Assembly: GCF_007752535.1 (NCBI RefSeq)
Contig: NZ_CP036426.1
Location: forward strand, 7,068,001 to 7,132,000
Direction of reading: 5' to 3'
DNA length: 64,000 nt
Source: Tautonia plasticadhaerens
GTDB taxonomy: Bacteria; Planctomycetota; Planctomycetia; Isosphaerales; Isosphaeraceae
Shown here: positions 6,846 through 60,653 of the stretch, piece by piece
Layout of the letters: every line of letters begins with the position of its first letter
Numbering within the stretch: position 1 is the stretch's first letter
Notes under the pieces: model-generated
What the model saw: the letters and a program-made list of their open reading frames with translations, nothing else
Told to the model about the DNA's origin: nothing
Databases searched by the model: none
Translations under genes and position numbers: made by a program

Positions 6846-8216
6846 ATGAGCAGCGCACCCATGACCCCCGCCCCCGGCGGCTTCACCGACGAGACCTTCG
6901 CCGCATTCCTCAAGGGCCGGGATGAGCCGAGCTGGCTGGCCGACCGCCGCCGGTCGGCCTTCGGGCGCTTCAAGGCCACCCCCCTGCCCACGCTCCGGGA
7001 CGAGGAGTGGCGGCGGACCGACCTCCGGGCACTGAAGCTCGACCAGTTCGCCCCCCCCGCCCCCGCCGAGCCCTCCGAGGCGGCCCGGGCCGCCCTGGAG
7101 CCCGCCTACCGGGGGCTCGACTCGCTCTACGGGACGGGGATCGCCCTGGTCGACGGCCACGCCGCGCGGTCCCCCGACCCGTCGAAGCTCGGGGGGGCGG
7201 TCTTCGTCGACCTGGCCTCGGCGGTCCAGGAGCACGGCGAGCTGCTCAAGGACCTGCTGATGACCGAGGCGTTCCGGGACGACGCCGACGCCTTCGCCGC
7301 CCTGCACGCCGCCTGCTGGACCGGCGGCGCCCTGCTCTACGTGCCGAAGGGCGTGAAGGTGGAGACGCCGCTGTTCCACCTCGTCGGCCTGTCGGCGGAG
7401 GGGGGCGCGGACCTGAGTCACACCCTCGTCGTGCTGGAGGAAGGGGCCGAGGCGACGCTCGTCCAGGAGACGATCGGCCTCGATCGCGGCAAGGCGCCCG
7501 GGCTGCACGTCGGCGGGGTCGAGCTGATCCTCCGGCGGGGATCCCGCCTGCGGTTCGTCAACATCCAGAACTGGGACACCTCCACCTGGCACCTCAGCCG
7601 GGAGCGGGCGGTGGTCGGCCCGGACGCGGCGTTGCAGTGGACCGTCGGCGGCCTGGGCTCGAGGCTGGCGAAGGTGAACCAGGAGGTGGCGCTGGTCGGC
7701 CGGGGGGCGAGGGCCCAGGTCAACGGCGTGATGTTCCCCACGGGGAGGCAGAACCTCACCTACATCACCCGGCAAGACCACGTCGCCCCGAACACCACCA
7801 GCGACCTGCTCTACAAGGGCGGCCTGAAGGACAGGTCCCGGCTGGTCTGGCGGGGCATGATCAAGGTCGAACCAGACGCCCAGCACACCGACGCCTACCA
7901 GAAGAATGACAACCTCGTGCTCGACGCCGACGCCCGGGCCGACTCCATCCCGGGGTTGGAGATCGAGGCCAACGAGGTCCGCTGCACCCACGGCGCCACC
8001 GCCGGTCCGGTCGACCCCGAGATGGTCTTCTACGCCCGGTCCCGGGGGGTCGACGAGGCCACGGCCACCCGGCTGATCGTCGAGGGCTTCTTCGCCAACG
8101 TCTACGACCGGATCAGCGTCGAGCCGGTGCGGGAGGCCCTCGCCCTGGCCGTCGCCCAGAAGCTGGAGCTGGGCAGCGCGCCGACACTCGCCTCGGCCGA
8201 GGCCGCCGGCGTCTGA
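6846..8216 (+). CDS. sufD: Fe-S cluster assembly protein SufD
   Basis: A 456-residue protein from the ATG at 6846; an open frame extends upstream inside the previous gene but is not likely to be used. The N-terminus has LRDEEWRRTDLRAL, typical of SufD, and the C-terminal half has the SufB/SufD beta-helix with YITRQDHVAPNTTSDLLYKG and CTHGATAGPVDPEMVFYARSRG. SufD is the partner of SufB in the SufBC2D scaffold. It follows the FkbM-type gene by 17 bp. Confidence 0.95.
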   Translation: MSSAPMTPAPGGFTDETFAAFLKGRDEPSWLADRRRSAFGRFKATPLPTLRDEEWRRTDLRALKLDQFAPPAPAEPSEAARAALEPAYRGLDSLYGTGIALVDGHAARSPDPSKLGGAVFVDLASAVQEHGELLKDLLMTEAFRDDADAFAALHAACWTGGALLYVPKGVKVETPLFHLVGLSAEGGADLSHTLVVLEEGAEATLVQETIGLDRGKAPGLHVGGVELILRRGSRLRFVNIQNWDTSTWHLSRERAVVGPDAALQWTVGGLGSRLAKVNQEVALVGRGARAQVNGVMFPTGRQNLTYITRQDHVAPNTTSDLLYKGGLKDRSRLVWRGMIKVEPDAQHTDAYQKNDNLVLDADARADSIPGLEIEANEVRCTHGATAGPVDPEMVFYARSRGVDEATATRLIVEGFFANVYDRISVEPVREALALAVAQKLELGSAPTLASAEAAGV

Positions 8217-8288
8217 GCCGGCGACCTTCCCCGCGCGCCCGACCTCATCACCACCCGAGTCTCGATCGAGTTCAAGGATCCGCCCGCC

Positions 8289-9143
8289 ATGTCCGACTAC
8301 GCCCACCCCGAGGCCCTCGTCTCCGCCGACTGGGTCGAGCAGCACCGGGATGACCCCAAGGTCCGGATCGTCGAGAGCGACGAGGACGTGCTCCTCTATG
8401 ACATGGGACACGTCCCCGGCGCCGTGAAGATCGACTGGCAGGGGGACCTCCAGGACCAGCTGATCCGGGACTACATCGACGCCGAGAAGTTCGCCGACAT
8501 CTGCTCCCGGTCCGGGATCGCCGCCGACACCACCGTGGTCTTCTACGGCGACAAGTCGAACTGGTGGGCCTGCTACGCCTTCTGGGCCTTCAAGCTGTTC
8601 GGGCACGACGACTGCCGGATCATGAATGGCGGCCGCAAGCTCTGGCTCGACCAGGAACGCGAGCTGAGCAGGGACACCCCCAGCTACCCCCGCACCGACT
8701 ACGTCGTGAAGGGCGCGGACGCGTCCAAGATCCGGATCTTCCGGGACGACGTGCTCGCCCACATGAAGGCCGGCAAGAAGATGATCGACGTCCGCAGCCC
8801 CGGCGAGTACACCGGGGAGCTGCTGCACATGCCCGACTATCCCCAGGAGGGCTCCCTCCGGGCCGGCCACATCCCCGGCGCCAAGAGCGTCCCCTGGACC
8901 CGGGCGGTCAACGAGGACGGCACCTTCAAGTCGGCCGACGAACTGAAGGCGATCTTCGAGGGGGAGTGCGGCCTCGATCAGTCCGACGAGGTGGTCGCCT
9001 ACTGCCGGATCGGCGAGCGGTCGAGCCTCACCTGGTTCGTCCTGACCTACCTGCTCGGCTACCCGAAGGTCCGCAACTACGACGGCTCCTGGACCGAGTG
9101 GGGTAACCTCGTCGGCGTGCCGATCGCCAAGGGGAACGAGTAA
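8289..9143 (+). CDS. Thiosulfate sulfurtransferase with tandem rhodanese domains
   Basis: A 284-residue SseA-like protein. The N-terminal rhodanese domain (about 8-130) has [10 protein letters not shown] where the active-site Cys loop would be, so it is the non-catalytic half. The C-terminal domain (about 150-280) carries CRIGERSS with the expected persulfide Cys239, matching the CRxGxR[ST] signature of thiosulfate sulfurtransferases. It is embedded in the suf operon, 72 bp after sufD and just before a small gene and the sufE-like gene. A role in supplying sulfane sulfur to cluster assembly is an inference from position and from the absence of sufS here. Confidence 0.93.
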
Positions 9144-9174
9144 GCCATCCCGAATCCGAGGAGGGCCGGCACCC

Positions 9175-9432
9175 ATGCCTGCGCGGCCATCATTGGACAA
9201 TGGTTATCTGTGGGTCTGCAACGCGGCGATGTCGTCGTCTCGGGCCCGTCGGATCGATCTCGGACTCGGCGAGCTTCGCTGCATCCTCCGGGTCCGGGAC
9301 TTCACCGGTGCTCGGGACGCCCAGGGTCGGGGATTCCCGGTCCACGCCGCCACGACCGTCGAACTTTGGGTGCACCCCGACGACGATCAGGCGGCCCAGT
9401 CCATCCTGAACCAGGCGATGGCCGAGCCGTGA
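9175..9432 (+). CDS. Small conserved-position protein of the suf operon, function unknown
   Basis: An 85-residue protein that I do not recognise. A clear AGGAGGG lies 9 nt upstream of the ATG at 9175, which supports translation. An internal ATG at 9229 is a less supported alternative. It has two Cys (about residues 15 and 36), no signal peptide and no membrane segment. Its C-terminus (VELWVHPDDDQAAQSILNQ) recalls the end of DUF2007-type domains, but the similarity is too short to rely on. It lies between the sulfurtransferase and the sufE-like gene on the same strand. Confidence 0.65.
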   Translation: MPARPSLDNGYLWVCNAAMSSSRARRIDLGLGELRCILRVRDFTGARDAQGRGFPVHAATTVELWVHPDDDQAAQSILNQAMAEP

Positions 9433-9556
9433 GCCGCCGGGCGACCGGGACGTTTCCCCGGGATCGCCCTCGGTGCTGCCCCCGGGCGTCTGGTCCCGAC
9501 AGGCGTCCATGCAGTCCCTACCCGACCCGAGCCGACCTCGATCGACGGAGACCCCC

Positions 9557-9994
9557 GTGCCCGCCGCGCTCGACGAACTCGTCGAGGAGCTTCGAGACGC
9601 CGACCGCCAGGAACGCATCGAGCTCCTCATCGACCTGGCCAACGACCTGCCCCCGCTGCCCGACCGCCTCTCCCACCACAAGGACGAGGCGCACCGGGTG
9701 CCGGAATGTCAGTCGCCGGTCTTCCTGTTCCTGGAGCGCGAGGGGCCGAAGGTCCGGATCTTCGCCGAGGTGCCCCCGGAGGCGCCGACCGTCCGGGGGT
9801 TCGTCTGCCTGCTGGTCCAGGGGCTCGACGGGGCGACCGCGGCCGAGATCCTCGACGTGCCCAACGACCTGATCCAGCGGACCGGCATGGCCGAATTGCT
9901 CGGCATGCAGCGCGCCAGCGGCCTGGCCGGCGTGCTCCGACGCCTCAAGCTGATGGTGGCCCGGGCGGAATCCGACGACCCGGCCTCGAACTGA
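9557..9994 (+). CDS. sufE: SufE-family sulfur acceptor protein
   Basis: From the GTG at 9557 (CGGAG 6 nt upstream) this is a 145-residue protein, the normal SufE size; in-frame starts at 9509 and 9473 would only add a disordered leader. The catalytic loop reads RVPECQSPVFLF, with Cys51 in the place of the SufE Cys that takes persulfide sulfur from a cysteine desulfurase; the family norm is V-x-GCQS. Other SufE marks are LPPLPDRL near residue 31 and VRGFVCLLVQGL in the core. Its usual partner SufS is not encoded nearby, so it may work with a distant desulfurase or with the adjacent sulfurtransferase. Confidence 0.9.
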   Translation: MPAALDELVEELRDADRQERIELLIDLANDLPPLPDRLSHHKDEAHRVPECQSPVFLFLEREGPKVRIFAEVPPEAPTVRGFVCLLVQGLDGATAAEILDVPNDLIQRTGMAELLGMQRASGLAGVLRRLKLMVARAESDDPASN

Positions 9995-52721: not shown

Positions 52722-53141
52722 ATGGTTCCGATCGGGAAGACCGAGCGGACGCCGGGCCGGAGGCTCGGTCCGATCTTCGGGTTCGGGGTGCCGGGGGCGG
52801 TGCTCGGGCTGGCGACGGCCTGGATGCTGGGCGCGGGCCCGGCCCGGGGCGTGCAGGCCGAGGGCGGCCCGACCCAGGGGTCGGCCGGCGGCCTGATGGC
52901 GCTGACGACCTCGGCCCCGGGAGACCCGGGCGGCACCCGGCTGGTGCTGATCGACCAGCGGACCCAGGCGATGGCGATCTACAAGATCGACGGCTTCAAG
53001 GGGGGCTCGATCAAGCTCGAAGCCGCCCGGCAGTTCGGGCCGGATCTCCGGCTCTCGGAGTACAACAACCTGCCCCCGGAGGTCGCGGCGGTCGAGGCGA
53101 TGGTCGCCGCGCCTCGCCCGAGGGGCATCTCGGGGCAATAA
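52722..53141 (+). CDS. Small secreted or membrane-anchored conserved protein
   Basis: A 139-residue protein from the ATG at 52722; the leader GGGAGGTGATC just before it is an exceptionally strong ribosome binding site. Residues about 18-46 are hydrophobic (GFGVPGAVLGLATAWMLGAGPARG), a signal peptide or anchor. The mature part has RLVLIDQRTQAMAIYKID, GSIKLEAARQFGPDLRLSEYNN and a final EVAAVEAM, a pattern I recall from small planctomycete proteins of unknown role. It is 139 bp upstream of the HTH membrane protein gene. Confidence 0.75.
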   Translation: MVPIGKTERTPGRRLGPIFGFGVPGAVLGLATAWMLGAGPARGVQAEGGPTQGSAGGLMALTTSAPGDPGGTRLVLIDQRTQAMAIYKIDGFKGGSIKLEAARQFGPDLRLSEYNNLPPEVAAVEAMVAAPRPRGISGQ

Positions 53142-53280: not shown

Positions 53281-55014
53281 ATGGCTCAGTTCTACACCCT
53301 GGAGGAAGCCGCGCGGGCCCTCGGCATGAACCCCGAGGAGCTGAAGCAGAAGGCCCAGCGCCGAGAGGTGCGGGCCTTCCTCGACAGCGGCTCGTGGCGC
53401 TTCCGCGTCTCGGACATCGACGAATTGGCCCGCCGCAGCGGCATGGGCAGCGACCCGGACCTCTCCCTCTCCGACCTCGACCTGATCCCCGAACAGGGGG
53501 GCAGCGGCATGGAGAGCGTCGACGAGGACTCCCCGGAGTCGATCTTCAACCTCGGCGTGGCCAAGTCCGACCTCGGCCCCGCCTCCCGGGAGGACGTGCC
53601 CTCGCGGGAGTCGGGCTCCGACGCCGACATCCTGCTCGACGACGCCGCCCTGCCGATGGGCAGCGGCTCAAGCTCCCACATCATCGGCATGGAGACCTCG
53701 GGCAAGCAGCCGAGCGACTCCGACGTCCGCCTCGTCCCCGAGGACGGCCCCAAGGGGGCCAGCGACTCCGACGTGCAGCTCTCCGGGGAGATCGACGTGG
53801 TCCCCCCCATGGGCGGGGGCCGCAGCTCCAGCGACTCCGACGTCACCCTCGTCCAGGAGGGGACCGACGAGTCGTTCGAGGTCTTCGGCACCAAGGACTA
53901 CGAGGACTCCGGCTCCTCCTTCGCCGGCGGCGGGCTCGGCAGCAGCGGCAGCGGCAGCGGCATCGCCCGGAGCCACGACCCCGGCAGCGGCAGCGGCAGC
54001 GACGAGACCACCCTCCGGCCCAGCCCCATCGGCTCGGACGACGAGCTGGACTTCCGGGCCGAGGGCCCGGGCGCCCCGGAGGAGGACGACAGCGACTTCG
54101 AGCTGACCCCCTCCAGCGTGATCGACGCGCTGCAGCCGGAATCCGGCAGCGACTTCGAGCTGACCGCACTGGACGCCAGCGACGAGTTCGACGCCGCCGC
54201 CCCCCGGCCCAGCGACTCGGACGTCACCGGGGCCGAGCCGTCGACCTCCGGCGTCAACCTCGGCCGGCCCAGCGACTCGGGCATCAACCTCCAGCAGATG
54301 GGCGGGCTCGACGACGCCGACTCGATCGAGCTGGCCCCGCTGGGCGACGAGGACGAGCCCAAGAAGGCGCCCGCCCCCAAGGCCAAGCCCAAGCCGGCCG
54401 CCGCCCAGCGCCCCGACCCCTCGGCCACGGCCATGCCCGGCTTGGCCCCCGATTCCGACCCCTCCGCGACCGCCCTGCCGGTGCGGGCCGAGGGCCAGAA
54501 GGACATCTTCGAGGACACCGACTTCGAGGTCGACGCCCTCGACAGCGGCGACGACAACACGATGCAGCTGGACGCCAACAGCGACTTCGACCTGGACGAG
54601 AGCGACTCGGCCTCCGAGGTCTTCGCCGTCGACGAGGAGGACGTGGACCAGAGCGCCGCCACCGCCCTGGGGCCCGGCATCGCCGGCGACGACGAGGACG
54701 ACGGCCTGGGGGACGCCGTCGAGGCCGAGCTGTCCGCCTCCGAGGAGATGGAAGGCGTCGGCTGGGACGAGCCGGCGGCCGCCTCCGGTGCCGCCGCCGC
54801 CACCTCCTCGGCCGCCGGCCGGCGCTCCGCCCTGCTCTCCGACGCCGGCGGGCCGCCCTGGGGCGGCGTCTGGGTCGGCGTGCTCTGCGCGACCACCGTC
54901 CTGATGATGGTCCTCTCCTTCATCACGATGGACGTCGTCCGCAACCTCAACAGCTTCCAGAGCGACACCCCCGTCGCCTCCGGGCTGGTCAACGTGATCG
55001 CCGGGGGCGAGTGA
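53281..55014 (+). CDS. Membrane-tethered helix-turn-helix protein with acidic SDSDV repeats
   Basis: A 577-residue protein. Residues 4-53 form a MerR/excisionase-type helix-turn-helix (FYTLEEAARALGMNPEELKQKA, SWRFRVSDIDELARRSG). Residues about 55-525 are acidic, Ser/Asp/Gly-rich and probably disordered, with the motif SDSDV at 145, 161, 184 and 311 and the related SDFEL or TDFEV at about 271, 289 and 413. One hydrophobic helix at about 528-552 (WVGVLCATTVLMMVLSFITM) would anchor the C-terminus, leaving the DNA-binding head in the cytoplasm. The role is unknown. A good terminator follows. Confidence 0.85.
   Translation: MAQFYTLEEAARALGMNPEELKQKAQRREVRAFLDSGSWRFRVSDIDELARRSGMGSDPDLSLSDLDLIPEQGGSGMESVDEDSPESIFNLGVAKSDLGPASREDVPSRESGSDADILLDDAALPMGSGSSSHIIGMETSGKQPSDSDVRLVPEDGPKGASDSDVQLSGEIDVVPPMGGGRSSSDSDVTLVQEGTDESFEVFGTKDYEDSGSSFAGGGLGSSGSGSGIARSHDPGSGSGSDETTLRPSPIGSDDELDFRAEGPGAPEEDDSDFELTPSSVIDALQPESGSDFELTALDASDEFDAAAPRPSDSDVTGAEPSTSGVNLGRPSDSGINLQQMGGLDDADSIELAPLGDEDEPKKAPAPKAKPKPAAAQRPDPSATAMPGLAPDSDPSATALPVRAEGQKDIFEDTDFEVDALDSGDDNTMQLDANSDFDLDESDSASEVFAVDEEDVDQSAATALGPGIAGDDEDDGLGDAVEAELSASEEMEGVGWDEPAAASGAAAATSSAAGRRSALLSDAGGPPWGGVWVGVLCATTVLMMVLSFITMDVVRNLNSFQSDTPVASGLVNVIAGGE
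53938..54003 (+). repeat. Short GGCAGC microsatellite inside the HTH protein gene
   Basis: Two runs of GGCAGC-type hexamers (about 53938-53961 and 53983-54002) encode Gly-Ser stretches of the linker. Such runs could change in copy number and so alter linker length. Confidence 0.5.
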
Positions 55015-55346: not shown

Positions 55347-56057
55347 ATGCGAATGAGCCTCTCCGCCCTCTGCGCCGCCCTGGTCGTCGGCGCCGCCGCC
55401 CACGCCTCCGAGCCGGTCCAGGTCCAGGGCCACTACCTCGAGGCCCGGACCGCCGACGTCTTCACCGGCCCCTGCTTCTCCAACTCCGAGGTCTTCATCG
55501 TCGGCGACCGCGCCGTGATGGCCTGGAAGGTGACCGAGGGCTCGTTCGAGGGCGTCGACCTCGCCGGGCTCGGCGTCGCGGCGGCCGTCAAGGGGACCTC
55601 GACCTTCTCCGAGGACCGCCCCGAGCGGGCCGAGTCCGTGCTGATCGTCGACGAGCGGGCCGACGCCCGGCAGCGGGCCGCCCTGGCGGCGATGGCCCGA
55701 CGGCTCGGCGGCGGCCGCCTGGACAACGTGGTCGCCGTCGAGGTCGCGTCGATCGACCTGAGCGTCGACGAGCACTGCCACCTGGAGGCCCACGGCCCCT
55801 CCCACAAGGCCCACATCATGCCGCTGGCCCCGCCGGCCCGGTTCCAGGCCGCCGGCCTCGCCGAAATCGCCACCCGGCCGCTCGACGCCAATGACTGCCT
55901 CTGCGGCAACGAGGTCATCGCCTACGAGCCGCTCGCCGAGGGGGTCGAGGTCCTGCCGGCCTACACCCTGGGCCACTCCTTCCGGGGCGAGGGCCTGGAC
56001 AGCACCTGGGCCTCCCCGAATGCCCGGAGTAGCTTCGTCGGCCGGTTCGCCTACTGA
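55347..56057 (+). CDS. Secreted DUF1326 protein
   Basis: A 236-residue protein with a signal peptide (residues 1-20, ending AAAHAS). The DUF1326 domain fills the rest: VQGHYLEARTADVFTGPCFSNSEV at the start, AVMAWKVTEGSFEGVDLAGL, and C-terminal ANDCLCGNEVIAYEPLAEGVEVLPAY. Three or four Cys, including CLC, could bind metal or form disulfides. The family is of unknown function. A well-formed promoter and the upstream terminator suggest its own transcription unit, perhaps with the next gene. Confidence 0.9.
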   Translation: MRMSLSALCAALVVGAAAHASEPVQVQGHYLEARTADVFTGPCFSNSEVFIVGDRAVMAWKVTEGSFEGVDLAGLGVAAAVKGTSTFSEDRPERAESVLIVDERADARQRAALAAMARRLGGGRLDNVVAVEVASIDLSVDEHCHLEAHGPSHKAHIMPLAPPARFQAAGLAEIATRPLDANDCLCGNEVIAYEPLAEGVEVLPAYTLGHSFRGEGLDSTWASPNARSSFVGRFAY

Positions 56058-56223
56058 GCGGGCGATCGAGCCGGCCCCGACCGGCATCGAGCCGGATCCC
56101 GGGCCCGCCGGCCGCGGTCCCCGAGGGGACGCCCGGCGGGCCTCGTCCTTCGAGGACCCGCCCGAACGACCTCCCCCCACCCACTCCTCCCCGAACGAAT
56201 CGAACCGGAGGGATCGAACGCTC

Positions 56224-56916
56224 ATGCGTGCGACGTTCGCCATCGTCTGCTCGGCCCTCGGCCTGGCCCCGACCGGGCCTCCCGCGACGGCCCAGGACTC
56301 TTACCGCGTCGAGGCGCTCGCCGAGGCCCCCCCCGAGGAGATCGCCGCCCCGGTCCGGGAGGCGCTCCAGCAGGAGGGCCTCCGGGTCCTGGACGCGGAG
56401 GGGACGCCGGTCGTCGACCTCTGGCTCCGCAAGTCGGTGCCGGCCGCCGAGGCGCCGGGCGGCCCGTCCGGGTCGATCCTGCTGCCCTTCCTGGAGGCGG
56501 GCCAGCTCGTCGGGGCCATGAGGCTGGAGGGGGAGGCCGGCGACTACAAGGATCAGGTCATCCTGCCCGGCGTCTACACGATGCGGTACGGGTTGCAGCC
56601 GGTCGACGGCGACCACCTCGGCGTCAGCGAATTCCGGGACTATTTCCTGCTCTCCTACGCCGACGAGGACGTCGAGGTCGAGCCCGTCTCCCAGGAGGAC
56701 CTCCAGATCCTCAGCAGCGGCCCCTCGGGGACCACCCACCCCTCGGTCTTCCTCCTGTTGCCCGCCCCCGAGGGCGCCGAGGCCCCCTCGATCGTCCGGG
56801 ACGAGCAGCAGGGGCGCACCGGCGTCCTGCTCTCGATGCCCTTCGAGGTCGACGGCGAGGACGCCCCCCGGCCCCTGGCCGTGCAGGTCGTCGTCGAGGG
56901 TGCCGGGCCCCACTGA
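56224..56916 (+). CDS. Secreted protein of unknown function
   Basis: A 230-residue protein from the ATG at 56224 with GGAGGGA upstream. Signal peptide at about 1-23 (CSALGLAPTGPPATAQ). The body is beta-rich: LQQEGLRVLDAEGTPVVDLWLRKSVP, GQLVGAMRLEGEAGDYKDQVILPGVYTMRYGLQP and DYFLLSYADEDVEVEPVS. The pattern resembles other planctomycete secreted proteins, but no named domain is recognised. It is 166 bp after the DUF1326 gene on the same strand and may share its transcript. Confidence 0.75.
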   Translation: MRATFAIVCSALGLAPTGPPATAQDSYRVEALAEAPPEEIAAPVREALQQEGLRVLDAEGTPVVDLWLRKSVPAAEAPGGPSGSILLPFLEAGQLVGAMRLEGEAGDYKDQVILPGVYTMRYGLQPVDGDHLGVSEFRDYFLLSYADEDVEVEPVSQEDLQILSSGPSGTTHPSVFLLLPAPEGAEAPSIVRDEQQGRTGVLLSMPFEVDGEDAPRPLAVQVVVEGAGPH

Positions 56917-57067
56917 TCGATCCGATCGCCGACCCGATCGGCCGGTCGCCGTCGGGCACGCCGGGCGGCCGCCGGGGCCGCCCCGGCTCCGGCGCCCCGG
57001 CCGGGCTCGGCGAGGCGGTCCCCGGGCGATCCCGACGATCCGCCCCGCACGGAGAGTGCCCCCAAGG

Positions 57068-58555
57068 ATGCCCCTGATCGCCCTGGTCGCCCTCTTCGTG
57101 GCCTTCTGGTCGCCGGTCTCGCCGGCCCCCGGGGGCGTCCCCGGCCCCGGCGGTGCGGACGCCCTGGGGCGGGCGTTGCTGGCGATGACCGCCGTGGCGA
57201 CGGTCGGGTCGATCTCGGCCCTGGTCGGCGGGCTGATGGCCCGCCGGGTGGCCAGGGCCGGGCCGACGCTGGAGGACCGCCGGAGGCTGGCCCGGGCCTC
57301 GCTCGGGCTGGAAGTGCTGGCGGTGGTCGCCTTCGGCCTGGTGGTCCACCTGGGCCGATGGCCGGAGGCCGTCGCCGTCGGCATGGGCCTCTCCGGCTGG
57401 ACGATCGCGGAGGAGGCGGTCGTCCTGCTGCCGTTCCTGCTGATGTTGCTGGCCGCCTGGTCGGGGCTCTACCAGGCGGACCGGGTGCTCAAGGCCTCGG
57501 GGATGCGGGGGGTGAAGCATTCCTGGCTGGCGGGCTACCTGGTGTTCAAGGCGAGGCAGGCGCTCGGCCTGGTCCTGCCGGTCGCGGTCCTCTTCGCGGT
57601 GGTGCAGGATCTCCAGGGGTGGATCTCCCCCGGGGGGGACCCCGCGGCCTGGGTCTCGCTCGCCCTTTATGCCGGGCTCGGCGCGACCATCCTGGTGCTC
57701 TCCCCCGCCTTCGTCCGCCTGAGCTGGCCGGCCAGGCCGATGCCGCCGGGGCCGCTCCGGGACCGGCTGGAACGCCTGGCCCGCCGCTTCGGGTTCCGGT
57801 ACACCGACATTCTGGTCTGGGACACCGGCGGCGGCCTCGTCAACGCCGGGGTGACCGGCGCCACCCCCTGGTTCCGCTACGTCCTGCTGACCGACGCGAT
57901 GGTCGAGAACCTCTCCCCCCGGGAGATCGAGGCCGTCTTCGGCCACGAGGTCGGCCACGTCGCCCACCGGCACCTCGCCTACTTCGGGCTGTTCTTCCTC
58001 GGCACGATGGGGGTGATGTCGCTGCTGACCAGCGGGATCGACCGCTTCCTGGCGATCGGCTCGCCGATCTGGGCCTGGGGGCGGGACCCGACGGTGGAGC
58101 TGGTGGTGCAGGGCGCCGCGGCCCTGGGGTTCGGGGCGGCCTACTTCCTGCTGATCTTCGGCTACCTCTCCCGACGCTTCGAGCGCCAGGCCGACGTCTT
58201 CGGCTGCCGGGTCGTCTCCTGCGGCCGGGGGGGCTGCCCCCCCCACCCGGACGTCAACGCCCTGCCCGGCCCCGGGCCGGCGGTGCCCGAGACGCTCTGC
58301 CCGGTCGGCATCGGCATCTTCATCGAGGCCCTCTCCAGCGTGGCGATGCTCAACGGCATGGAGCCCCGGGCCCGCTCCTGGCGGCACGGCAGCATCGCGA
58401 GGCGGATCTCCTTCCTCCGGGGGCTGGAGGGCCGCCCCGAGGCCGAGCGCCGCTTCCAGGCCCGGCTGGCCGGGCTCAGGCTGGCCGTCGGCCTGGCGCT
58501 GACGACGGCGCTGCTGCTCGCCGTCACCACCGGGGCCCTGGGCCGGCTCCACTGA
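57068..58555 (+). CDS. M48-family zinc metalloprotease, membrane-bound
   Basis: A 495-residue protein from the ATG at 57068. Six or so hydrophobic segments fill residues 1-230. The protease site is GHEVGHVAHRH (His293, Glu294, His297), and the third ligand is the Glu of RRFERQADVFG. Further hydrophobic helices lie between and after these. An insertion after the third ligand has four Cys (GCRVVSCGRGGC, then LCPVG) that may bind metal or form disulfides. Ste24/HtpX-like roles in membrane-protein quality control are known for the family. Confidence 0.9.
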   Translation: MPLIALVALFVAFWSPVSPAPGGVPGPGGADALGRALLAMTAVATVGSISALVGGLMARRVARAGPTLEDRRRLARASLGLEVLAVVAFGLVVHLGRWPEAVAVGMGLSGWTIAEEAVVLLPFLLMLLAAWSGLYQADRVLKASGMRGVKHSWLAGYLVFKARQALGLVLPVAVLFAVVQDLQGWISPGGDPAAWVSLALYAGLGATILVLSPAFVRLSWPARPMPPGPLRDRLERLARRFGFRYTDILVWDTGGGLVNAGVTGATPWFRYVLLTDAMVENLSPREIEAVFGHEVGHVAHRHLAYFGLFFLGTMGVMSLLTSGIDRFLAIGSPIWAWGRDPTVELVVQGAAALGFGAAYFLLIFGYLSRRFERQADVFGCRVVSCGRGGCPPHPDVNALPGPGPAVPETLCPVGIGIFIEALSSVAMLNGMEPRARSWRHGSIARRISFLRGLEGRPEAERRFQARLAGLRLAVGLALTTALLLAVTTGALGRLH

Positions 58556-58739
58556 GCCCCCCCCGGCCGGATCGGCCCCCGACTTGAGAAAACCCGACGC
58601 CCCGCCTTCTCAGCCCGCCGGGGTTGTGTTAAATTCCCGCGCCCTCGGGGAGGATGCCCGGGGGATCCCGACGACGCAGGACCTCCCCCCCGCGATCGCC
58701 GGCAACGCCCGAGGGACGCCCGACACGGAGGTCGCCGCC

Positions 58740-60653
58740 ATGCCCCGATGGCCGATCCGGATCAAGCTGATCCTCGGCCTGAGCCTGGTCGTCGCCATGA
58801 TGATGACGCTGCTGGCCGGCGCCATCGTCGGCCTGCGCGCCTTCCATCGGAGCAACCTGACGCTCACCGACCAGCTCCGAGAGCTGGGGGCCTCGAAGGA
58901 CCTGCTCCAGGCGGTCATGCAGCTCGACCTCGACGACCACGAGCTGGACCAGCTCTTCCCCGCCTCCCCCCCCGGGCTGGCCTCGCCTCGCCCCCCGCGG
59001 AGGCTCGAGGGCGCTCCCCTGCGGGACTGGCCCGAGCGGCTCCGGGCCGCCCTGCCGGCCGAGGACCCGGAGGGCGCCGCCCCTCCCGCCCCGGCCGACG
59101 AGGAGCTCCGACGCGCCTCCGGGCCCTTCGTCACCGTGATCGACGCCGACGCCCGCCGCAAGGAGATCCTCGACCGGCTGCTCTCCCGGATCCGGGCCGC
59201 CCGGCAGGCCCTCGCCCGGTACTACGCCGAGCTGGAGCGCAACAGCCTCCGGGGCAACCGCTCCGACGGCCGGGAGGAGTTCACGCTCGCCTTCCTCATC
59301 GACGAGGACCTCGCCGGCATCCTCCAGCACTTCGAGCCCGACGAGGCCGTCCCGCCGATGACCGAGCGGACCTCGATCTACGTGGCCCGCCACCCCGAGG
59401 CCGACCTGCTCAACGCCGGGCCCTGGGAGCCCTACGCCCTGACCCGGGCCCGGCTCGACCGCCTCACCGCCTCGGCCGTCAGCCTGCCGGACAAGCTGCA
59501 CAGCGACTTCTTCCTGGTGCTGGAGGCCTCGAAGCGGCACTACCAGTCCAGCCGGGTCATCGTCTGGACCGCCGCCCTGGCCGTCCTGGCGATGCTCTGC
59601 GGCCTGACGAAGCTGGTGCACCGCTGGGTCTTCGCCCCGATCCGCCTGCTGCACCGGGGGGTCCGGCACGTCGCCCGGGGGTCGTTCGACTACACGATCG
59701 ACCTGGCCACCGGGGACGAGATGCAGGCCCTCGCCGAGGCCTTCAACGACATGATCGCCCGGCTCGGCGCCAGTTACGCCGACCTCGAGCGCCAGGTCGC
59801 CGAGCGGAGCCGCCAGCTCGTCCGCTCCGAGCGGCTGGCCGGCGTCGGCTTCCTCGCCGCGGGCGTCGCCCACGAGATCAACAATCCCCTGGCCTCGATC
59901 GCCTTCTGCGCCGAGGCCCTGGAGCACCGCCTCGACCCGGTCCTCAAGGCCGCCGACCCCGAGGGCACCGGCGACGCCCGGGTCGCCCGGGACTACATGA
60001 GGATGGTCCAGGAGGAGGCCTTCCGCTGCAAGCGGATCACCGAGAAGCTGCTGGACTTCTCCCGCTGCAACGACATCCAGCGCCAGCGGACGGACCTGGT
60101 CGAGCTGATCGACGGCGTCGTCGAGATGATGCGACACATGGGCAAGTACCGGGACAAGCGGATCGTCTTCCAGCCGAGGGAGTCGGTCGTGGCCCTGGTC
60201 GACCCCCAGGAGATCAAGCAGGTCGCCCTGAACCTGGTGGTCAACGCCCTGGACAGCATGGAGGCCGGCGGGACGCTCCGGATCGACGCCCGGATGGCCG
60301 CCGGGCAGGCCGAGCTGTCCTTCCGGGACGACGGCTGCGGCATGGCCCCCGACGTCCTGGAGAACATCTTCGAGCCGTTCTTCACCCGCCGCAAGGCGGG
60401 CAAGGGCACCGGCCTGGGGCTGTCGATCTCGCACCGGATCGTCAGCCAGCACCACGGCGAGATCGCCGCGACCAGCCCCGGCGAGGGCCTCGGGTCGACC
60501 TTCACCGTCCTGCTCCCCTCGCAGCCCCTCCCTCCCAGGAGGGACCGGGGCGGCCCCGAGCCGAGCCGGGGGCGGCACCCGCTTTGCACCTCCGCCGCGG
60601 CGGTGGGGGGCGACGACGCCTCGACGCCCCCGTCGATCCCCGTCGAAGGATAA
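58740..60653 (+). CDS. Sensor histidine kinase
   Basis: A 637-residue protein from the ATG at 58740. Transmembrane segments lie at about 10-32 and 277-297 and enclose a sensor domain of about 245 residues that is helical and charged with a Pro/Ala-rich insertion. HAMP (about 300-350), HisKA with AHEINNPLAS (His378) and HATPase with LVVNALDSME, DDGCGM and GKGTGLGLSIS follow. These N-, G1- and G2-type boxes are intact. The partner is probably the NtrC-type regulator at 61326. A Gly/Arg-rich tail ends the protein. Confidence 0.93.
   Translation: MPRWPIRIKLILGLSLVVAMMMTLLAGAIVGLRAFHRSNLTLTDQLRELGASKDLLQAVMQLDLDDHELDQLFPASPPGLASPRPPRRLEGAPLRDWPERLRAALPAEDPEGAAPPAPADEELRRASGPFVTVIDADARRKEILDRLLSRIRAARQALARYYAELERNSLRGNRSDGREEFTLAFLIDEDLAGILQHFEPDEAVPPMTERTSIYVARHPEADLLNAGPWEPYALTRARLDRLTASAVSLPDKLHSDFFLVLEASKRHYQSSRVIVWTAALAVLAMLCGLTKLVHRWVFAPIRLLHRGVRHVARGSFDYTIDLATGDEMQALAEAFNDMIARLGASYADLERQVAERSRQLVRSERLAGVGFLAAGVAHEINNPLASIAFCAEALEHRLDPVLKAADPEGTGDARVARDYMRMVQEEAFRCKRITEKLLDFSRCNDIQRQRTDLVELIDGVVEMMRHMGKYRDKRIVFQPRESVVALVDPQEIKQVALNLVVNALDSMEAGGTLRIDARMAAGQAELSFRDDGCGMAPDVLENIFEPFFTRRKAGKGTGLGLSISHRIVSQHHGEIAATSPGEGLGSTFTVLLPSQPLPPRRDRGGPEPSRGRHPLCTSAAAVGGDDASTPPSIPVEG

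Follow-up and report, generated by a model that had tools for sequence, protein, structure and literature searches.

Results

A winged helix-turn-helix head, an acidic linker and a membrane helix in one protein

The window, that is, the whole 64,000-nucleotide stretch of the Tautonia plasticadhaerens genome that we analysed, contains an open reading frame at 53281-55014 (+ strand, as for all window coordinates given here) whose product is a protein of 577 aa. The gene lies on contig 1 of the 9.4 Mb genome, where it is single-copy, and directly downstream of the co-directional gene for a small exported protein, here called c1 (52722..53141). From the N terminus, the protein consists of a MerR/BldC-fold head (aa 1-56, 53281..53448), a disordered acidic linker (aa 57-528, 53449..54864), one C-terminal membrane helix (aa 529-557, 54865..54951) and a tail of 20 aa that is predicted to be periplasmic and is conserved in the alignment (aa 558-577 and stop codon, 54952..55014).

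Each of the three larger parts had been proposed from the sequence in a first-pass annotation of the window, and each is borne out by profile or structure evidence. For the head, said to be of the MerR/excisionase type, the Pfam family HTH_17 matches aa 4-52 with 26.5 bits (E 8e-6), just below the gathering score of 27 bits, and the match rises above this cut-off in some relatives. An AlphaFold2 model made with 23 sequences in the input gives a confident winged helix-turn-helix (HTH) for aa 1-50 (pLDDT 90-96). The same model assigns a pLDDT of 33-50 to the linker, with aa 69-522 mostly below 50, which indicates disorder; the linker contains about 15% S, 14% D and 9% E and has a pI of about 4. 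Finally, most of the C-terminal helix is modelled with a pLDDT of about 90, and the helix coincides with the hydropathy maximum of the protein (2.33, aa 530-548). The tail after the helix, the single copy and the existence of a phylum-wide orthologue family go beyond the earlier description.

The head has the fold of DNA-binding proteins and an acidic contact surface

Structure comparison places the head closest to DNA-bound BldC, RacA, HiNmlR and Xis, with CbpM also among the matches. The two BldC alignments (Z 7.7 over 53 residues, rmsd 2.0; Z 7.2 over 50 residues, rmsd 1.2) stay below a Z of 8 and are read as shared fold, not shared function. The head profile also matched the designed 'CAP repeat' protein 8vd6, with a total E of 5e-22. 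This score is the sum over five helical repeats, nearly identical to one another and worth about 17-21 bits apiece, and we dismissed the resemblance as accidental or convergent.

We compared the net charge of 100 heads of the family with that of 18 HTH_17 domains from the same genome as the window. The family heads average -1.6 (-9 to +3) versus +4.6 (+1 to +11) for the HTH_17 domains, a contrast whose test statistics are descriptive given that the heads are related by descent; the head of the window protein itself carries +1. Acidic residues are concentrated at particular positions: position 19 in 85/100 heads, position 20 in 82/100 (where 13 of the 18 HTH_17 controls have Thr) and position 35, at the start of the wing, in 97/100. 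In the alignment made here, positions 19 and 20, in what is an acidic recognition helix, correspond to BldC Lys26 and Thr27, which contact a base and a phosphate, respectively (PMC5859096). Two further BldC residues, Arg30 and His46, are essential for DNA binding (PMC5859096). The position equivalent to Arg30 is basic in 62/100 heads and is Gln in the window protein, and one basic wing position is kept. On this pattern, the family taken together is unlikely to bind specific DNA sequences. Some DNA affinity is possible for the head of the window protein, because the Arg30 equivalent is often basic, the basic residue of the wing is kept and the charge of this head is +1. Of the earlier label 'DNA-binding head', therefore, the fold stands and the DNA binding is doubtful. 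Likewise, the DNA tether and the regulator released by proteolysis that had been put forward as functions are not the leading readings, because the heads are net negative and acidic where BldC touches DNA.

A DNA-membrane tether nonetheless deserves to be weighed. Here the head would bind chromosomal DNA weakly or cooperatively, as do RacA, Xis and BldC, and the linker would set the distance between nucleoid and inner membrane. The closest folds listed above speak for it, in particular RacA, an architectural MerR-type DNA binder, as do the charge of the window head, the frequently basic Arg30 equivalent and the reported high condensation of Planctomycetia DNA (PMC10632474). Against it stand the negative mean charge of the heads, with acid at two recognition-helix contact positions and at the start of the wing, the apparently still more acidic heads that occur in tandem in other genomes (described below) and an operon in which no gene concerns DNA or segregation. 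We regard a tether of this kind as unlikely.

Short motifs recur in the disordered linker and are conserved

The linker of the window protein contains the motif SDSDV four times, at aa 145-149 (53713..53727), 161-165 (53761..53775), 184-188 (53830..53844) and 311-315 (54211..54225), and SDFEL twice, at aa 271-275 (54091..54105) and 290-294 (54148..54162). Counting all motifs of the SDSDV/SDFEL type, 7 are present versus 0.05 expected from composition-preserving shuffles, and a broader form of the motif occurs 187 times across 43 homologues versus 4.1 expected. The repeats named in the first-pass annotation are accordingly far more frequent than composition explains, in relatives as well as in the window protein. 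Elsewhere in the genome we found a single additional SDSDVxL-like match, at position 4627827 of contig 1, not covered by any in-frame open stretch of 120 aa or more; the motif cluster is otherwise confined to this gene.

In an alignment of 31 Isosphaeraceae sequences, the blocks SDSDVRL, SGSDFELTALD, SGINLGRPSDSGINL, KDIFEDTDFEVDAL and S-SEVFA-DE are highly identical, many of their columns being 90-100% identical, and are separated by variable stretches. The KDIFEDTDFEVDAL block (aa 407-420, 54499..54540) is near-invariant within Isosphaeraceae. Two blocks are recognizable both in this alignment and in a multi-family one: SASEVFAVDE (aa 443-452, 54607..54636) and SGVNLGRPSDSGINL, or DSGINL block (aa 323-337, 54247..54291), in which S323, G324, L327 and S333 are shared by all 23 sequences of an alignment that spans several families. 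Such conserved islands between variable stretches are the pattern of short linear motifs repeated along a disordered region. Among the functions first suggested for the repeats, docking sites fit best, because the motifs are kept across a class inside an otherwise disordered linker, and the motifs may therefore be docking sites.

Relatives with two membrane helices (L063, L064, L067, L075) carry a near-invariant linker block of their own, SGSGLLDLTxESDDTSLGAxLLD, which is unlike the motif of the window's class.

The family is found throughout the Planctomycetota

Homologues are present in 47 of the 59 nearest genomes. Within a sample of 294 Planctomycetota genomes, a full-length profile has matches in 189 and a head profile in 241, the latter including 136 of the 155 good ones. 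When a head-only alignment was used to scan 84,980 species genomes, the best 80 loci all belonged to Planctomycetota, planctomycete taxa or bacterial MAGs, with Ca. Uabimicrobium amorphum and planctomycete Pla86 among them; the full-length window protein as query retrieved no relatives from the same collection. No relative was found in viral contigs.

The layout of head, acidic linker and C-terminal membrane helix was present in 99 of 100 loci from dozens of planctomycete families, with one helix in 89 and two in 10. In the sole locus without a predicted helix, the open reading frame runs into unresolved bases. These 100 loci were picked by their match to the head, and the survey could thus reveal an absent helix and not an absent head. 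The linkers range from 63 to 484 aa, a nearly eight-fold difference. Proteins from beyond the window's class, at about 170-430 aa, are shorter and still consist of the head, the acidic linker and one or two C-terminal membrane helices. A distant relative, L059 (G031:C92, ORF 8007-9695, - strand), lacks an acidic repeat linker; behind its head come a putative zinc ribbon and then a membrane helix.

Literature searches on planctomycete excisionase-type membrane proteins returned no results, and the main text of the Planctopirus limnophila essential-gene paper mentions no excisionase-type or helix-turn-helix protein. The family is real and conserved, and the libraries and papers that were searched contain no description of it.

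Fusions indicate the orientation in the membrane

In two genomes, a Uabimicrobium genome (G160) and G107, the unit of head, linker and membrane helix runs on into HlyD-type periplasmic adaptor domains (L237, L238, L243). Since these domains follow the membrane helix, the head would be cytoplasmic and the C terminus outside; for the window protein, the fusions indicate by homology a cytoplasmic head and a periplasmic tail.

The same two genomes encode proteins in which the head occurs in tandem with acidic linkers between the copies, up to about six per protein (L239 and L245 in G160, L242 in G107). These tandem heads look more acidic still than those of the family. A 99-aa frame (L241:1363-1659) has the reversed order, an N-terminal membrane helix and then the head. 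Judged by these arrangements, the head is a module that membrane proteins reuse, in keeping with a docking role.

The HlyD fusions also raise the reading that the protein is part of a transport or efflux assembly, in which the head, together with the acidic linker, would bring a cytoplasmic ATPase or a cargo to a periplasmic adaptor. The common form of the protein, with just a short tail after the helix, and the lack of a conserved transporter gene among the neighbours both speak against a function in transport, which we consider highly improbable.

The gene is usually flanked by genes for an exported protein and an OmpA-domain lipoprotein

The c1 frame is open from 52599, with the ATG at 52722 as the likelier start. 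Its product begins with a helix, either a membrane or a signal helix, and continues as a small beta-sheet domain (AlphaFold2 pLDDT about 77-94 over the sheet); it is recognized by a c1 profile HMM and alignment. It has no match in Pfam, and comparison of its model with PDB structures gave no confident match (best E 0.27). The c1 profile has matches in 206/294 Planctomycetota genomes. A second recurrent neighbour, c2, is a coiled-coil OmpA-domain lipoprotein: PF00691 matches six such proteins from different families at E 2e-20 to 5e-7, and 34 of 58 flanking ORFs fit a strict lipobox pattern, while many of the others show a lipobox by eye.

Across the 100 loci, the gene immediately upstream, on the same strand, is c1 in 66, c2 follows directly downstream in 53, and both flank the gene in 46, including 32 of the 63 loci outside the window's class; these counts measure genomic linkage, from which we infer that the products may be in physical contact. 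The window has no c2 beside the gene, and neither do two congeners examined (L032, L033). A single-protein c2 search of the window genome found nothing, while three other OmpA-domain genes are present. In family f2 the HTH protein is present and c1 was not detected. Several nearly complete f48 genomes (e.g., G105, G125, G174) have a detectable c1 and no head protein was found in them; the f48 partner of c1 may have diverged or been replaced. Because f2 lacks a detected c1 and f48 the head, the three genes are separable. To judge from gene order, the gene usually lies within an operon of c1, HTH protein and c2, a three-gene unit that is not obligatory.

Downstream in the window (55347-60653) are genes for a DUF1326 protein, an M48-type membrane peptidase (56900-58555, HEVGH motif seen by eye) and a HAMP histidine kinase, which are kept as neighbours in several Isosphaeraceae.

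This neighbourhood bears on whether the protein is a membrane-bound regulator of the ToxR/CadC sort that uses its tail and the exported c1 to sense the envelope and is possibly freed by regulated proteolysis. As in ToxR/ToxS, a winged HTH at the N terminus is combined with one membrane helix, and the neighbouring gene encodes an exported protein; several Isosphaeraceae, like the window, also have a peptidase and a kinase gene downstream. In the loci beyond Isosphaeraceae, however, neither the peptidase nor the kinase gene is a neighbour. We identified no cleavage motif, the acidic disordered linker can exceed 400 aa and the charge of the head speaks against DNA binding. A regulator of this type is, in our estimation, very unlikely.

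Discussion

We propose that the family comprises bitopic inner-membrane adaptors that resemble RodZ, in which an HTH-fold head docks a cytoplasmic protein while the helix and tail couple to an envelope complex; we give this proposal an even chance of being right. With its N terminus in the cytoplasm, the MerR/BldC-fold head would have shifted from DNA to protein binding and would dock a cytoplasmic partner. The acidic linker may serve as a spacer with several short docking motifs of the form acidic-Ser-Asp/Gly-hydrophobic-x-hydrophobic. The single membrane helix is predicted to anchor the protein, and the short periplasmic tail would connect it with an envelope complex, of which c1 and the OmpA lipoprotein c2 may be members in most lineages.

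A more far-reaching and tentative version, which we hold to be rather doubtful, is that of a trans-envelope organiser specific to Planctomycetota. Its multi-motif linker would gather cytoplasmic clients, and c1 and the OmpA lipoprotein would fix it to the wall, thereby taking the role that RodZ, Tol-Pal or divisome scaffolds have elsewhere. Planctomycetota, whose cell biology is unusual, are reported to divide without FtsZ.

Annotation of such a gene as a single-domain HTH protein masks what would be a conserved envelope module in most sampled genomes of the phylum, and the head analysis is a warning against labelling these genes as transcription factors. The linkage gives a concrete gene set, c1, the HTH adaptor and the OmpA lipoprotein. 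If confirmed, the proposal would show once more how an envelope protein can take over an HTH fold as its cytoplasmic handle.

Comparison with known systems

With BldC, Xis and other MerR-type (HTH_17) proteins, the family shares the fold of the head; it differs in that the basic DNA-contact pattern is partly acidic and that the protein is membrane-anchored in the loci examined. RacA, a coiled-coil protein that acts with DivIVA in Bacillus chromosome anchoring, is alike in having a MerR-type head in a protein that links to the cell envelope, but it binds DNA and lacks an acidic repeat linker or a C-terminal membrane helix of the present kind. Regulators of the ToxR/CadC type have a cytoplasmic winged HTH, one membrane helix and an exported partner encoded alongside, a layout common to ToxR/ToxS; their winged HTH is of the OmpR type with a DNA-binding surface, and they have no long acidic repeat linker.

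The likeness to RodZ extends over the whole predicted layout: a cytoplasmic N-terminal HTH-fold head, a linker, one membrane helix and a C terminus outside, the sidedness being drawn here from the HlyD fusions. It would also extend to function, given the envelope role and the HTH that binds protein instead of DNA that we propose; the RodZ HTH binds MreB and itself, not DNA (PMC6946637). The parts differ, since in RodZ the HTH is of the XRE type, the juxtamembrane segment is basic and the periplasmic domain is folded, whereas the present family has a MerR/BldC-type head, an acidic repeat linker and a short tail. None of the XRE-type families in Pfam is matched by the head. A search that was positive in 12 of 14 control genomes found no true MreB in the window genome, where weak partial matches (at most 52.8 bits, in frames of 583-1008 aa) are read as Hsp70-like. 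The non-XRE head and the absence of MreB rule out RodZ proper, and because no true MreB was found in the genome, the partner must differ from that of RodZ. Read as an adaptor, the family is another bitopic HTH-fold adaptor, a kind that is already known.

For the head itself the precedent is CbpM, which has a MerR fold without the DNA-binding residues and binds the J-domain of CbpA (PMC4063869). CbpM is a soluble coiled-coil dimer without membrane helix or disordered linker, unlike the present protein, in which a comparable protein-binding head would be carried at the membrane.
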